From the NCBI RefSeq assembly GCF_940670685.1, contig NZ_OW711693.1, positions 3,100,001 to 3,164,000 of the forward strand: a DNA stretch of 64,000 bases. The letters are read 5' to 3'. Below, in pieces: positions 14,874 through 28,238 of the stretch (position 1 is the stretch's first letter; every line of letters begins with the position of its first letter). Origin of the DNA: Anaeropeptidivorans aminofermentans (GTDB lineage: Bacteria > Bacillota > Clostridia > Lachnospirales > UBA5962). The position numbers and the translations under genes are program-made. The notes beneath the pieces were generated by a model, which made no database searches, had not been told where the DNA came from, and was given only the letters and a program-made list of their open reading frames with translations.

Positions 14874-15092
14874 ATGTATCAGCGTTTAAAGAATTTACGA
14901 AATGATAAAGACTTAACCCAACAGGAATTAGCAGATTATTTAAAAATATCAAGAAGTGCTTATCAGAATTATGAATCCGGCACTGGAGGAATTCCAATAA
15001 AAATACTGTCAAAATCAGCTGATTTTTATTGCATAAGTGTTGATTATCTGATTGGAAGAACAAATTGCAAAGAGCCATATCTTAAAAAATGA
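14874..15092 (+). CDS. Small XRE-family regulator 3 (near-copy of 1)
   Basis: The 72 aa match XRE 1 except at about ten positions (NLRNDKDLTQQ, GTGGIPIKILSKSADFYCIS). AGAGGTTCAT precedes the ATG. The 40 bp before it (CCAGAATGGCAATAAAAAGA) are repeated before XRE 5, so the duplication carried leader sequence. Confidence 0.87.
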   Translation: MYQRLKNLRNDKDLTQQELADYLKISRSAYQNYESGTGGIPIKILSKSADFYCISVDYLIGRTNCKEPYLKK

Positions 15093-15104
15093 TATTGTTT
15101 TGAG

Positions 15105-15335
15105 GTGAAGCCAATGATTAGAACACGATTAATACATTTAAGGGAAAGCCGTAACTTAAAACAAAAAGATGCGGCAGAAGCATTAAATATTCCTACGCGT
15201 ACCTACGGAAACTATGAGATGGGCACAAGAAGTATTCCGCTTGATATCCTCATTGAAATCGCAAAGTTTTACAATACAAGCACAGATTATATCTCAAAGA
15301 TTACAAATAAAAAAGAAGCATATCCTAGCGAATAA
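15105..15335 (+). CDS. Small XRE-family regulator 4
   Basis: The 76-aa single-domain helix-turn-helix protein has LIHLRESRNLKQKDAAEALN, IPTRTYGNYEMGTRSIPLD and TSTDYISKITN, ending KEAYPSE. GAGGTGAAGCCA precedes the ATG, 12 bp after the XRE 3 stop. Its recognition helix differs from 1-3, implying a different site. Confidence 0.86.
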   Translation: MKPMIRTRLIHLRESRNLKQKDAAEALNIPTRTYGNYEMGTRSIPLDILIEIAKFYNTSTDYISKITNKKEAYPSE

Positions 15336-22213: not shown

Positions 22214-23689
22214 TTAGAAATTAGCATCTTTATTTTCAGAAAGCGTAACTGTTAAGGTGAGGGTTTCTTTGCCTTCTCTTATAAGCTTTAGTTCAACCTC
22301 TTCGCCTACTTCACAGCTTTGAACCCTTTCTGAAAGTTGGTCCATATCAAAGACTGTTTCGCCTTTAAAGCTGGTAATAATGTCTGTTCTTTTAATACCG
22401 GCTTTTGCTGCGCTGGAACCTTCCAGTACCGATTCTACAACCACACCCATTTCAGGCAGATTAAACGCCTGAGCTACTTGAGGAGTGACAGTATAGCCTA
22501 CGATTCCTAGCATAGGCTTCGGAACTCTGTTACGCAGCTGTTCAATAATCGGCATGGCAACATCTGATGTAATACAATAGCCCATGCCTTCGACTTTTGT
22601 TTCGGCAAGCTTCAAGGTGTTGATCCCTATAACCTCACCGTTTAGATTTATAAGAGGCCCTCCGCTGTTACCCGGATTAATGGCCGCGTCTGTCTGAATC
22701 ACTGTAAGAACTCTGTCTTCTACGCTTACTTCTTTATCGATTGCGCTTATGAAGCCAAAGGTTGCTGTATTGCCTTCACCTAAGGCATTGCCGATGGCTA
22801 TGGCAAAATCCCCTACACGCATGTTTTTGGAGCTTCCGAACTTTGCCTTGATAATCTTTTCAACACCTTTTTCCTTAAGGTCCTTTTTAAGAACGCTTAA
22901 TACGACCAAGTCTGATTGCGGCTCTTTGCCCACAAGGGTTGCCGGAACATTCTCGGCGCCTGAAATACTTACTAAAACCGATTTGGCACCTGAGGTAACA
23001 TGGTTATTGGAAACAATATATACCCTTTCGTTATCCTCATCGAATATAATTCCGCTGCCTTGGTTCGGGGTTTCCCCCTGCATTGAAAACATACCGTAGT
23101 CTATAGAGCCGTCTTTAACAGAGGTTATGCACACAACCGACGGTTCAACCGAATCTATCAAATCGGCGAAGCTTAAGCCTCCTTTAAGAGAAGCGCTGTA
23201 GCTTGCCTCACTGCCTTGTGTTTTTGTCTCCTCGTTTTGAGTGCTTTCAGCAAATTTGAATTCCTGAACAGGAGCCTTATTGCCTGCCTTACTGAACATC
23301 GGAATAATTACCTCTGTAGTAAGGGCCATCATGGCACCTACACTGGAACCACCCAATATAGAGATGATGCATACGACTGCAATAAGCCTTTTGAAACCGC
23401 TTACTTTATTTTTATGGGTTTCATTTTTTATTGTTTCTTTAAAAAAGCTTTGGTCATCTATATTCTGTGAAGGTACATAATCCTTATTCTCATCATCCGA
23501 AGGAACGACCTCTCTTTTGCCGTAACCCTCTATAGCAGGAGAATCTACATTTTCAGTAGAAGCAAGGTCATTATTTAGATTTTCAGGTACGGATATGCTT
23601 TCATTTGTTCCGTTTTCCAAATCTCTATCGATCTCTCTTTGAATTTTGTCAATTTCACTTTGATCAAAGGGATCCTTAAATTCATTCAT
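22214..23689 (-). CDS. HtrA/DegP-like membrane-anchored serine protease (second of tandem pair)
   Basis: The 491-aa protein has an acidic cytosolic N-terminus of about 100 residues, one helix (LIAVVCIISILGGSSVGAMM), and an extracytoplasmic trypsin-like domain with the triad H in SNNHVTSG, D in QSDLVVLS and S in NPGNSGGPLI. A C-terminal PDZ domain follows (GVVVESVLEGSSAAKAGIKR). It degrades or chaperones misfolded exported proteins. The start follows AGGGGGCATAAAT. It lies 101 bp downstream of a paralogue, ending the pair before a terminator. Confidence 0.93.
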   Translation of the reverse strand: MNEFKDPFDQSEIDKIQREIDRDLENGTNESISVPENLNNDLASTENVDSPAIEGYGKREVVPSDDENKDYVPSQNIDDQSFFKETIKNETHKNKVSGFKRLIAVVCIISILGGSSVGAMMALTTEVIIPMFSKAGNKAPVQEFKFAESTQNEETKTQGSEASYSASLKGGLSFADLIDSVEPSVVCITSVKDGSIDYGMFSMQGETPNQGSGIIFDEDNERVYIVSNNHVTSGAKSVLVSISGAENVPATLVGKEPQSDLVVLSVLKKDLKEKGVEKIIKAKFGSSKNMRVGDFAIAIGNALGEGNTATFGFISAIDKEVSVEDRVLTVIQTDAAINPGNSGGPLINLNGEVIGINTLKLAETKVEGMGYCITSDVAMPIIEQLRNRVPKPMLGIVGYTVTPQVAQAFNLPEMGVVVESVLEGSSAAKAGIKRTDIITSFKGETVFDMDQLSERVQSCEVGEEVELKLIREGKETLTLTVTLSENKDANF

Positions 23690-23790
23690 ATTTATGCCCC
23701 CTGCGAAACCTGTAAATTAAGGATTAAATATATCATACCATACATCTTTGAAGATAATATGAATGAAATGTGAACATTTTCGCATTATAT

Positions 23791-25089
23791 TTAATTTACA
23801 GAGTTAATATTCTTTATTTCTGCATTAAACGTCATAAGCTGACCGTTTCTGTAGGCTTTTATTTCTACCTTTTCACCTGTTTTGCATTTTGCTATAAGGT
23901 TTTGAAGCTCTTCCATGGATTTAACTTCTGTACCCTTAAAGGTTGTAATAATATCTCCCCTTGTAAGGCCTGAGCTTTGAGCTCCGGAGCCTTGGGATAC
24001 GGAATATACCATTACGCCGCCAGATGGAAGGCTGTAGGATTCTATCATCTGGTCTGTTACTGTAAGAGCGCTTATGCCGAGATACGGTCTTTCAACGGTT
24101 CCTGTCTGAACAATCTGCTCAGCAATTTCCCTTACGGAGCTTGAAGGAATCGCAAAGCCCATGCCTTCAACATCGGTCTGGGAAAGCTTTGCTGTATTGA
24201 TGCCTATTACCTGACCGCTTAAATTAACAAGAGCGCCGCCGCTGTTTCCGGGGTTAATTGCTGCATCTGTCTGAATTACATCAAGAGTGGCGTCTCCCTG
24301 CACTGTGATTTTTTTATCCTTTGCAGAAATAATACCTAAAGTAGCGGATTTTCCTTCTCCTGCCGCATTGCCTATGGCAATAACCGTCTGTCCCACTTCC
24401 ATTTTACTGTCGTCTCCGAATGTGGCAACCTTATAATCAAAGCCTTCCACATTCTTGGCATCTGCCTTATTAACTGTAAGAACGGCGATATCCGACTGGG
24501 AATCCCTGCCTAATATCTTTGCCTGAACCTGATTGTTGTCATCTAAGGAAACGGTGATGCTTTGAGCACCCTCAATAACATGGTTATTAGTAACAACATA
24601 TATTTTATCATTGTCTTCATAGAAGATAATGCCGCTTCCGGCGCTCGGTGTGGTAATTGTTCCGTAAAAATAATTATTTATGGTAGTAGTTGAATTAATA
24701 CTTACGACGGAATCCTGAACATCTTTAATAACCTGAACTACCTTGGAATCCTCGGCTCCTACGGCAAGGTTTGAATAGCCGTTTACAACGGGAGATACGG
24801 AAGACTCAGCCGACTTAAATATTTCCTGTGCTTCGGAAACGATGTTTTTTGAAAAATAATCCTTATATATTCCCGCTCCCGCTCCTATACCAAGGCCTAA
24901 GGAACCAAAGCTAAGGCATGCTACAAGCGCAATAGGGACTAATTTAGAAATGCCTTTTTTCTTTTTTACTGCCGCCTGGGGCTGAATTTGAGGATCAGGG
25001 CTCACCTTGCTTCCATCATCCTCTATTCCATAGCTCATGTAAAAAGTATCGTTTTCGTTGTAGTTATTCATATTATTATCATTATACAT
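23791..25089 (-). CDS. HtrA/DegP-like membrane-anchored serine protease (first of tandem pair)
   Basis: At 432 aa it has a shorter Asn-rich cytosolic tail (MYNDNNMNNYNEND), one helix near residue 55 (LVPIALVACLSFGSLGLGIG), the triad H in TNNHVIEG, D in QSDIAVLT and S in NPGNSGGALV, and one PDZ domain (GVMVYSVSQGSGAQSSGLTR). The ATG at 25089 follows GGGAGGAAATCAT; an upstream frame start overlaps that Shine-Dalgarno. The pair arose by duplication and the two differ mainly in the cytosolic tail, perhaps reflecting different regulation. Confidence 0.93.
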   Translation of the reverse strand: MYNDNNMNNYNENDTFYMSYGIEDDGSKVSPDPQIQPQAAVKKKKGISKLVPIALVACLSFGSLGLGIGAGAGIYKDYFSKNIVSEAQEIFKSAESSVSPVVNGYSNLAVGAEDSKVVQVIKDVQDSVVSINSTTTINNYFYGTITTPSAGSGIIFYEDNDKIYVVTNNHVIEGAQSITVSLDDNNQVQAKILGRDSQSDIAVLTVNKADAKNVEGFDYKVATFGDDSKMEVGQTVIAIGNAAGEGKSATLGIISAKDKKITVQGDATLDVIQTDAAINPGNSGGALVNLSGQVIGINTAKLSQTDVEGMGFAIPSSSVREIAEQIVQTGTVERPYLGISALTVTDQMIESYSLPSGGVMVYSVSQGSGAQSSGLTRGDIITTFKGTEVKSMEELQNLIAKCKTGEKVEIKAYRNGQLMTFNAEIKNINSVN

Positions 25090-25230
25090 ATGATTTCCTC
25101 CCTGCATCTTAATTTATACTAAGCAAACTTAAAAATAATTCCAGGCAGCGTCTTAAAATAATTAAACCACCGGTAGATTTTGCAAGAAAGCGTGGCTTCA
25201 AGCATTTGAAATCATCTTTCTATGGCAAAA

Positions 25231-25987: not shown

Positions 25988-27367
25988 TCAGAAGCTTTCT
26001 GCTTCCTGAGCCGAGTTATATATTTCCATATTCTGCTCTCCGCTTAATTTGGAGGTTACTAAACCTGCAACTAAACCATCAGAAACATTTATGAGGGTTC
26101 TTCCCATGTCTATAAGGGCTTCTATGGAGATTAAAACACCCACAAGACCAACAGGCAATCCCATAGCAGATAAAACAACCAGCGCCGCCATAGTAGCTCC
26201 GCCGCCTACGCCTGCAATACCAAAGGAGCTTATCGTTACTACGAGAACAAGCTCAATGATGAACATAGGGCTAGCCGGGTTTATTCCCACCGTAGGCGCT
26301 ATCATTACGGCAACCATGGCAGGATACATCCCTGCGCAGCCGTTCTGCCCTATAGAAGTTCCAAAGGAAGCCGCAAGAGAAGCAATTGTTCCGGGAACAC
26401 CAAACTTCTTTTCCTGGGTTTCAACCGTAAGGGGTAGGCATGCGGCTGAAGAACGGGAGGTGAAAGCAAATACCAAGCAAGTGAAAGCTTTCTTTATATA
26501 AGTAAGGGGATTATAGCCGAATACTGAAATTATCACTAAATGAGCTACAAATATAAGGCCTAAGATTACGTAAGATGCAAGTATAAATACGCCGAGGGAT
26601 TTCATGGCGGCAAAGTTAGAGGAAGCCATGAATTTTGCCATAAGGGCCAATATACCGTAAGGGGTAAATTTCAATACGATATTGACAATCTCCATAACAA
26701 CCGCCTGGGCAGTATTAATAATATTTACAAAGAAAGCAGATTCCTTCGGCTTTTTCTTTTTAAGCACCAAGCCTGCAACACCTAAAAACATAGAGAAAAA
26801 TACCACGGATAATGTTGCGCTTTCCCCGTTTCCTGCAAATGCGCTGAATACGTTTGAAGGAATGATATTTATTATTTTTGAAGAGATGGTCGCTGCGTTA
26901 ACTTCCTGCCCGCTTTTTTCTAAGGATTCCATCCTGGCTGTTTCCTTGTCGCCAATGGTAATATCATTTGCATTTAAGCCGAAAGCCAATGTTCCTGCTA
27001 TTGCTATAATGGCAGATAACGCAGTAGTAAGCAAAAGAACAGATATGATTCTGATGCCGTATTTTCCAAGGGCCTTAGCGTCGTCAAGATTCACTATTGC
27101 GGAGGTAATGGACACAAATATCAGCGGCATTACCACCATCTGAAGCATTTTTACATATATGGAAGAAACTATATTAATCCATGTTACCGTATCCTTCAAA
27201 GAAGATGAATCAACACCGTAAATTAATTGAAGTATAAAACCGAAAACACCGCCGATAACCATGGCTGATAAAACTCTGAATGTGAAAGGCAGCCTCTTTG
27301 TCTGCATAACGTATAAAACTCCGCATATTATGAAAAATATTACCAGATTAAGAATTATTTCCATCAT
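25988..27367 (-). CDS. tcyP: Na+/H+:L-cystine symporter, TcyP type
   Basis: The 459-aa dicarboxylate/amino acid:cation symporter resembles Bacillus TcyP throughout its N-terminus (GVLYVMQTKRLPF, YVKMLQMVVMPLIFVSI). The core shows TSRSSAACLPLTVE (re-entrant hairpin 1), FGTSIGQNGCAGMYPA and GVGGGATMAALVVLSAMGLP (hairpin 2). Eight membrane helices are expected. It imports cystine, a sulfur and redox source. Two ATGs are adjacent; the first lies 7 nt after AAAGGAGAG. It precedes nothing cotranscribed; the thioredoxin-like gene upstream ends 148 bp earlier. Confidence 0.87.
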   Translation of the reverse strand: MMEIILNLVIFFIICGVLYVMQTKRLPFTFRVLSAMVIGGVFGFILQLIYGVDSSSLKDTVTWINIVSSIYVKMLQMVVMPLIFVSITSAIVNLDDAKALGKYGIRIISVLLLTTALSAIIAIAGTLAFGLNANDITIGDKETARMESLEKSGQEVNAATISSKIINIIPSNVFSAFAGNGESATLSVVFFSMFLGVAGLVLKKKKPKESAFFVNIINTAQAVVMEIVNIVLKFTPYGILALMAKFMASSNFAAMKSLGVFILASYVILGLIFVAHLVIISVFGYNPLTYIKKAFTCLVFAFTSRSSAACLPLTVETQEKKFGVPGTIASLAASFGTSIGQNGCAGMYPAMVAVMIAPTVGINPASPMFIIELVLVVTISSFGIAGVGGGATMAALVVLSAMGLPVGLVGVLISIEALIDMGRTLINVSDGLVAGLVTSKLSGEQNMEIYNSAQEAESF

Positions 27368-27515: not shown

Positions 27516-27851
27516 TTATGCCTTTGAAATTATAGAGATAATTTCGTCAACGGATAAATTTTTGCCTTCGGATACTACTTGGCCGTCAATCACTATAGCA
27601 GGAAATTCAATGATGTTATATATTGCCATATCTGTCTCATCTGTGCTGAGAACGACCTTCTCGGGAAGACCCATGGCTTCAACTGCTTTCTCGGCATTGG
27701 TAAAGGTTTCTTTCCCTTCTTCTTCGGTAGATGCGTAAATCATTATGGGGTCTATCTCTTCGCTTCCAGCGGAGGAGGAAGAACCTCAAAGAAGGCATTC
27801 ACTCTCATTGGGATTGCCGCGCTTGCCAAATATCTTTTCGAATAAACTCAT
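27516..27851 (-). CDS. Thioredoxin-fold protein, probable selenoprotein (in-frame UGA)
   Basis: Reading from ATG 27851 (AGGGAGAGATAAAA before it) gives MSLFEKIFGKRGNPNESECL, L, then TGA at 27786-27788, then GSSSSAGSEEIDPIMIYAS and an uninterrupted 75-residue C-terminal part ending at 27516. The C-terminal part is a thioredoxin_3-like fold (EFPAIVIDGQVVSEGKNLS) whose usual CxxC is missing. The UGA sits in Cys-Leu-Leu-UGA, a CxxU redox motif. A hairpin at 27756-27783, just 3' of the UGA, could be a bacterial SECIS. Read as selenocysteine it is 111 aa, a small redox protein. The alternative is a nonsense mutation. Confidence 0.68.
27756..27783 (-). promoter_or_regulatory. Putative SECIS hairpin
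   Basis: Two nt after the UGA, UUCUUC pairs with GAAGAG and an inner UCC with GGA, leaving apical loop UCCGCU; a 5-bp CUUCC/GGAAG stem is an alternative. Position and the loop G fit bacterial SECIS rules, but the stem is short and purine/pyrimidine-biased, so chance is possible. Confidence 0.4.
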
Positions 27852-28238
27852 TTTTATCTCTCCCTTCTATAAGTTTTTTCTATACTTATATATTTTATCA
27901 TAAAATAAAACTTTAGTAAAGAATAGTATGTACCTAATAATGAATCTATATAACCGCTTCTATTAAAAACACTTTTATTTTCTGTTTTATGAAAATATAT
28001 ACCTTATTTTTCTCATAAAAAGAGCTTTCCGGTAAGATATTTATTACCGGAAAGCCTTATTTTGACATACATTATTCTAAAATTATATAAAATAAAGATA
28101 TAAGTTTTATTCCCCTTTGCTGCATAAAAATTCAAATCTGGCCGTCTATTAATTTCATCATGAAAACAATTGTTTCTGTTTAGAAGCTCCTTCAGCAAAT
28201 TTCTCACGCTAATCTTATGATAAAATATCAAGAAGCTT
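27852..28238. other. Gap between the histidine kinase and the thioredoxin-like gene
   Basis: This 387-bp region holds the kinase terminator (28024-28055) and an AT-rich upstream region of the thioredoxin-like gene without a clear consensus promoter. The frame on the minus strand at 28013-28231 has no Shine-Dalgarno and overlaps the terminator; I do not call it. Confidence 0.5.
28024..28055 (-). terminator. Terminator after the mutS2-regulator-kinase operon
   Basis: Perfect 12-bp arms GCTTTCCGGTAA/TTACCGGAAAGC with an 8-nt loop; on the minus strand TCTTTTTATG follows. It lies about 180 bp past the kinase stop. Confidence 0.7.

Follow-up and report, generated by a model that had tools for sequence, protein, structure and literature searches.

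A predicted small selenoprotein with a Cys-Leu-Leu-Sec tail and a thioredoxin-like domain in the clostridial bacterium Anaeropeptidivorans aminofermentans

Results

Organization of the locus

The window analyzed here is a stretch of 64,000 nucleotides from the genome of Anaeropeptidivorans aminofermentans (contig NZ_OW711693.1, positions 3,100,001 to 3,164,000); positions are those of the window unless genome coordinates are specified. It contains, on the minus strand, a small gene (hereafter the query gene) whose frame is interrupted by one TGA and which is followed by a gene for a cystine symporter-like protein. The features of the locus are as follows.

27516-27851, minus strand: whole gene, with TGA read as selenocysteine (Sec), 111 codons plus TAA (frame reading)
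27789-27851, minus strand: N-terminal tail MSLFEKIFGKRGNPNESECLL, similar to the M-x-LFG-KKK...Cys-rich tail of a family in Clostridia (homologue comparison)
27795-27797, minus strand: Cys19 of the CxxU pair (translation)
27786-27788, minus strand: TGA within the frame, the proposed codon for Sec at residue 22 (frame, together with Sec machinery in the genome)
27748-27785, minus strand: SECIS-like stem-loop with apical CGCU-GGA-AGCG, triloop GGA at 27767-27765 (folding)
27528-27716, minus strand: Thioredoxin_3 match, residues 46-108 (Pfam)
27892-27920, minus strand: promoter-like TTTACT-17-TAAAAT, 40 nt 5' of the ATG (weak; the region has two such sites against an expectation of 4.5 by shuffling)
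28023-28056, minus strand: intrinsic terminator-like hairpin of 13 pairs, between the gene and an upstream sensor-kinase-like gene
25988-27367, minus strand: TcyP-like cystine symporter, downstream neighbour (Pfam SDF; similarity to L-cystine transporters)

The TcyP-like gene lies on the same strand, 148 nt downstream of the query gene, and its product is approximately 48-50% identical to annotated L-cystine transporters, while reaching no NCBIfam cut-off. The upstream sensor-kinase-like gene has NCBIfam matches under cut-off, and Rfam gave one sub-threshold match near the query gene. Elsewhere on this strand (22214-25107), two adjacent genes encode HtrA/DegP-like proteases, also with NCBIfam matches under cut-off.

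The ATG at 27851 (minus strand) is preceded by AGAAGGGAGAGATAAAA, with the ribosome site AGAAGGGAGAG 5' of it, and the TGA at 27788-27786 is the sole break in the frame from this codon to the TAA ending at 27516. The predicted product begins MSLFEKIFGKRGNPNESECLLUGSSSSAGSEEIDPIMIY. Sequence and translation thereby bear out what the first-pass annotation had described, namely a ribosome site and ATG leading through a single TGA, and a UGA three residues past a cysteine in a CxxU pair, here C19-L-L-U22. An open frame of this kind is not significant by itself. The window was scanned for frames that begin at a start codon preceded by a ribosome site, run for 15 or more codons to a single stop and then stay open for 80 or more; three of these cross TGA (the query included), three cross TAA and none crosses TAG. 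The bare open frame is therefore within chance, and the claim must be carried by other evidence. The second of the frames crossing TGA is antisense to a 346-aa ORF lacking a Pfam match. The third, at 14874-15335 (plus strand), was rejected as a read-through frame; it comprises two tandem small regulator genes, each matching HTH_3, with an ordinary TGA stop between them.

A thioredoxin-like domain lacking its own CxxC

Residues 46-108 match Pfam Thioredoxin_3 (PF13192) with 40 bits against a cut-off of 24.8, and EEEG (residues 43-46) occupies the position where relatives carry CxxC, in agreement with the earlier statement that the domain has no CxxC of its own. The NCBIfam model TIGR00412 (MTH895/ArsE) scores the query at 44 bits, below its curated cut-off of 62, and membership in TsoC was rejected (15.2 bits against a cut-off of 45, over residues 82-110 only). 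When a profile of ten family members was compared with solved structures, MTH895 (1ilo) ranked first of four (E 1.8e-17). The AlphaFold model of the query has a mean pLDDT of 71.5 and a pTM of 0.54, with values of 69-86 per ten-residue block in the domain and of 41-56 in the first thirty residues; its first strand comprises residues 36-39. Foldseek searches with this model returned no PDB match at E <= 0.001 (MTH895 ranked sixth, E 0.016), and the fold assignment accordingly rests on sequence, through Pfam and the comparison of the profile with structures.

Relatives of the N-terminal tail

At the level of the order, 67 of 392 genomes gave matches (E <= 0.001), at that of the class 49 of 391 (E <= 1e-5) and at that of the phylum 13 of 398 (E <= 1e-7), these being overlapping draws that each include the genome of the window; the six other genomes drawn from the family gave none at E <= 0.001. 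Scanning named genomes with a profile yielded at least 268 relatives, of which the best 80 were retained. Three family proteins of the same order are identical over their last 100 residues to proteins of Anaerotignum sp. STD2_103, Lachnoclostridium sp. An181 and Anaerotignum sp. CSMAG_115, which would make this order Lachnospirales. Single-protein searches revealed no closer relative in genome contigs and viral contigs, and three weak matches, confined to the domain, in plasmids.

The common form of these homologues starts with M-x-LFG-KKK and continues through a Cys-rich stretch (CCCGGNC, for example) into a domain with CxxC. From 131 loci, 127 proteins were recovered by pattern; 122 were unique, and 97 of these had a tail of at least 20 residues. 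CxxC is complete in 119 of the 122, a count that tests the second Cys only, since the pattern required the first. We compared the query with a profile of 89 family tails from which it was excluded, writing its Sec as X. The match covers residues 1-19, all of which precede the TGA, and its 4.9 bits are low in themselves; among 5053 other start-codon peptides from the window a single one scored as high, and among 1000 shuffles two did. The tail contributes only about 2-3 bits to the query's score against the whole-family profile. By this weak score, the frame before the TGA appears to resemble the N-terminus of a large family.

The first-pass annotation had held that its reading would fail if homologues had neither Cys nor Sec at the position of the UGA. 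At least one Cys is in fact present in the tail of 91 of the 97 unique tailed homologues, although the column assigned varies by one residue. If Sec is spelled C, 85 of the 97 homologues have Cys opposite it (in three alignment modes); if it is spelled X or S, the residue opposite is mostly Gly (43-45 of 97) and L21 is the one that faces the Cys. As the alignment slides by one residue with the spelling of Sec, the predicted residue falls in or beside the Cys cluster, and the pairing of columns is uncertain by one.

These comparisons also bear on where translation begins. An in-frame ATG at 27743, 3' of the TGA, opens the frame of the domain, and the working product could in principle be the 75-aa domain alone, with the upstream frame untranslated or encoding a short leader peptide. 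We regard this as very improbable: by inspection, the ATG at 27743 has no clear ribosome site, as opposed to the ATG at 27851; it corresponds to residue 37, within the first strand of the model; and the upstream tail is the part that resembles the N-terminus of the family.

No second TGA-containing copy was seen among the matches in 57, 392, 391 and 398 genomes, which are overlapping draws in which many matches span the domain only; for that reason the tails were inspected separately in the 127 loci. Within 60 codons 5' of the domain an in-frame TGA occurs in 16 of them, in each case upstream of the apparent start as judged by eye.

Genes adjacent to the Cys-containing relatives

Among the best 80 of the at least 268 relatives in named genomes, the family gene was located in 74 loci, and at 70 of them another gene lies on the same strand no more than 250 nt away. 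Grouping of neighbours by phmmer to one representative per type placed an ArsP-, ArsC-, Acr3- or ArsR-type gene in 60 of these 70 loci, and a TcyP-like gene among none of the 115 neighbours examined in this same set of the best 80. The permease representative matches Pfam ArsP_1. For the ArsC-type and Acr3-type representatives Pfam gave nothing narrower than the broad families LMWPc and SBF, and the ArsC-, Acr3- and ArsR-type labels are putative. No arsenic-type gene (ArsP-type permease, ArsC-type or Acr3-type) was found among the seven neighbouring ORFs scanned at the query locus.

Selenium machinery of the genome

The genome is a single contig of 3.76 Mb, and each of the genes that the first-pass annotation had proposed to look for is present: selA at 927430, selB at 928593, tRNA-Sec with anticodon TCA at 931065, and selD at 1864227 (genome coordinates), the last itself containing an in-frame TGA. 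The absence of selB or selC had been named as grounds for abandoning the proposal; selB and tRNA-Sec both occur. SelA was also found in three of the six other genomes of the family that were drawn. In-frame TGA codons are likewise found in grdA (context TECFVUTAAG) and grdB (Pfam GRDB; context TSTUGTCTRCG). Within genome positions 926001-946000, no more than about 10 kb separates selA, selB and tRNA-Sec from these two genes.

Read-through of UGA can occur independently of a SECIS. A near-cognate tRNA might, by such a route, insert another amino acid in place of Sec; nothing in the present data points to this, and a complete Sec machinery together with a suitably spaced SECIS-like element makes it scarcely credible.

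A hairpin 3' of the UGA

The short hairpin that had been noticed just 3' of the UGA is present (CGCU-GGA-AGCG), and its energy is ordinary: folding-energy z scores range from -0.96 to +0.12, and the notion of an unusually stable hairpin was rejected. The GGA apical triloop lies 18 nt past the UGA on a stem of 4 bp (-10.3 kcal/mol), and the energy with this stem enforced equals the unconstrained minimum. The published model of bacterial SECIS elements specifies a loop of 3-9 nt, a stem of 4 or more bp, a spacing of 16-37 nt, G in the first two loop bases and a minimum free energy <= -7.5 (PMC13188914). The query fits this model (triloop GGA, stem 4, 18 nt, -10.3 kcal/mol), and our version of the model also accepts 60 of 500 TGAs sampled from the window, 25 of them at <= -10 kcal/mol.

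A closer likeness is found to other Sec genes of the same genome. In selD, a GGA triloop lies 17 nt past the UGA, and in grdB a GGU triloop lies 18 nt past it; grdA does not fit a GGN triloop at 17-18 nt. It is in the apical loop and its spacing, not in the energy, that the query resembles two of the three other Sec genes analyzed. A strict criterion (GGN triloop, 17-18 nt, four Watson-Crick pairs), chosen after these loops had been seen, was applied to 2616 TGAs, taken from both strands of the window and of an additional 20 kb. It selected three: the query, grdB and a single one of the 2614 that remain. With G-U pairs allowed, the same post hoc criterion selected eight of 2616.

This evidence bears on a further explanation, that the TGA is a true stop and the gene is decaying or miscalled, mutation or mis-sequencing of a Cys codon (TGC or TGT) having left a dead or truncated protein. 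Loss of the CxxC from the domain could signal such decay, and no second TGA-bearing copy appeared among the matches seen. On the other hand, the remaining frame is intact and its domain retains 40 bits, hairpins with a GGN triloop spaced as in selD and grdB are rare by the post hoc criterion (1 of 2614 other TGAs), and selD, grdA and grdB of the same genome have in-frame TGAs. Overall, we consider decay or miscalling unlikely, and we think it most likely that the gene encodes a small selenoprotein with Sec predicted at codon 22.

Discussion

We infer the insertion of Sec from the architecture of the gene, the machinery of the genome and the agreement among hairpin loops. As we envisage it, the stem-loop just 3' of the UGA, acting with SelA, SelB, tRNA-Sec and SelD, would direct Sec to codon 22 of a protein with an MTH895-like (Thioredoxin_3) fold whose domain has probably lost its CxxC. 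The reactive group would then be a Cys-Leu-Leu-Sec pair carried by a flexible tail at the N-terminus, an arrangement resembling Brachyspira Sec.1. The selenol of this tail might take part in thiol/selenol-disulfide exchange or form a metalloid-binding arm, for which the thioredoxin fold may provide a scaffold or docking part. Our guess is that C19 and U22 function as a working redox pair whose targets would be metalloids or disulfides such as cystine; the neighbouring cystine transporter would make reduction of cystine or other disulfides plausible, which again is a guess. Ordinary annotation would probably truncate this gene.

Selenoproteins of the type have been described. In Brachyspira, PF13192 proteins bear a short extension with Sec or Cys, and all genomes of this group that were analyzed contain a cluster of one Cys copy and two Sec copies, Sec.1 being without the domain CXXC, according to the description of this architecture by Santesmasses in 2017 (PMC5330540). 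Table 1 of a 2026 catalogue lists the Brachyspira proteins as CxU and UxC types (PMC13188914), and a 'Predicted redox-active disulfide protein 2' is named among selenoproteins in a further paper (PMC7435645). In the literature searched, outside of which most subscription papers lie, we found no clostridial example of a redox-active disulfide protein or PF13192 selenoprotein; the text of the deep-Sep paper contains neither 'Trx' nor 'Lachnospir'. Of the earlier proposal of a probable new selenoprotein, the selenoprotein is supported and the novelty of the family is not, since a PF13192 Sec type is already on record in Brachyspira in two of these papers (PMC5330540, PMC13188914).

A more specific history would have Sec gained independently of Brachyspira, by an arsenic-locus, Cys-tailed Thioredoxin_3 protein that lost its domain CxxC, shifted its chemistry to a CxxU tail and came to handle cystine or selenocystine beside a TcyP transporter; we offer this tentatively and consider it rather doubtful.

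Comparison with known systems places these features in context. The MTH895/ArsE-type thioredoxin-like proteins (TIGR00412; 1ilo) are related to the query domain by sequence, and differ in that the query falls below the TIGR00412 cut-off (44 against 62), is without CxxC and has the predicted Sec tail. The Cys-tailed proteins of Clostridia share the M-x-LFG-KKK start, the Cys-rich tail and the Thioredoxin_3 domain; unlike the query, they showed no Sec codon in their tails (127 loci), and their neighbours are mostly of arsenic type (best 80 of at least 268). Brachyspira Sec.2 (WP_218069652.1) has a PF13192 domain and Sec in its extension, but it is catalogued with a UxC motif, and the published description states the loss of CXXC for Sec.1 only. 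Brachyspira Sec.1 ('Redox-active disulfide protein 2', WP_232817751.1) resembles the query in arrangement: by the published description, it combines PF13192, Sec in a short N-terminal extension, a domain that has lost CXXC and a candidate bacterial SECIS past the TGA, features matched in the query with its predicted Sec. It differs in its motif (CxU in the catalogue, CxxU in the query), in its setting (a three-gene family cluster there, a lone gene next to a cystine transporter in the query genome) and in its lineage, being from Spirochaetota, whereas the query genome is clostridial. By its architecture, the query is most likely a clostridial relative of the Brachyspira selenoprotein type rather than a new family. 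What differs is the lineage (Clostridia, probably Lachnospirales), the CxxU motif and the cystine-transporter neighbour in place of the arsenic-type genes found beside Cys relatives. The selenoprotein type would thus extend to Clostridia, beyond the Brachyspira of published papers, and the pairing of Sec on a tail with a thioredoxin domain devoid of CXXC in two distant lineages would make the function of the tail testable in both.
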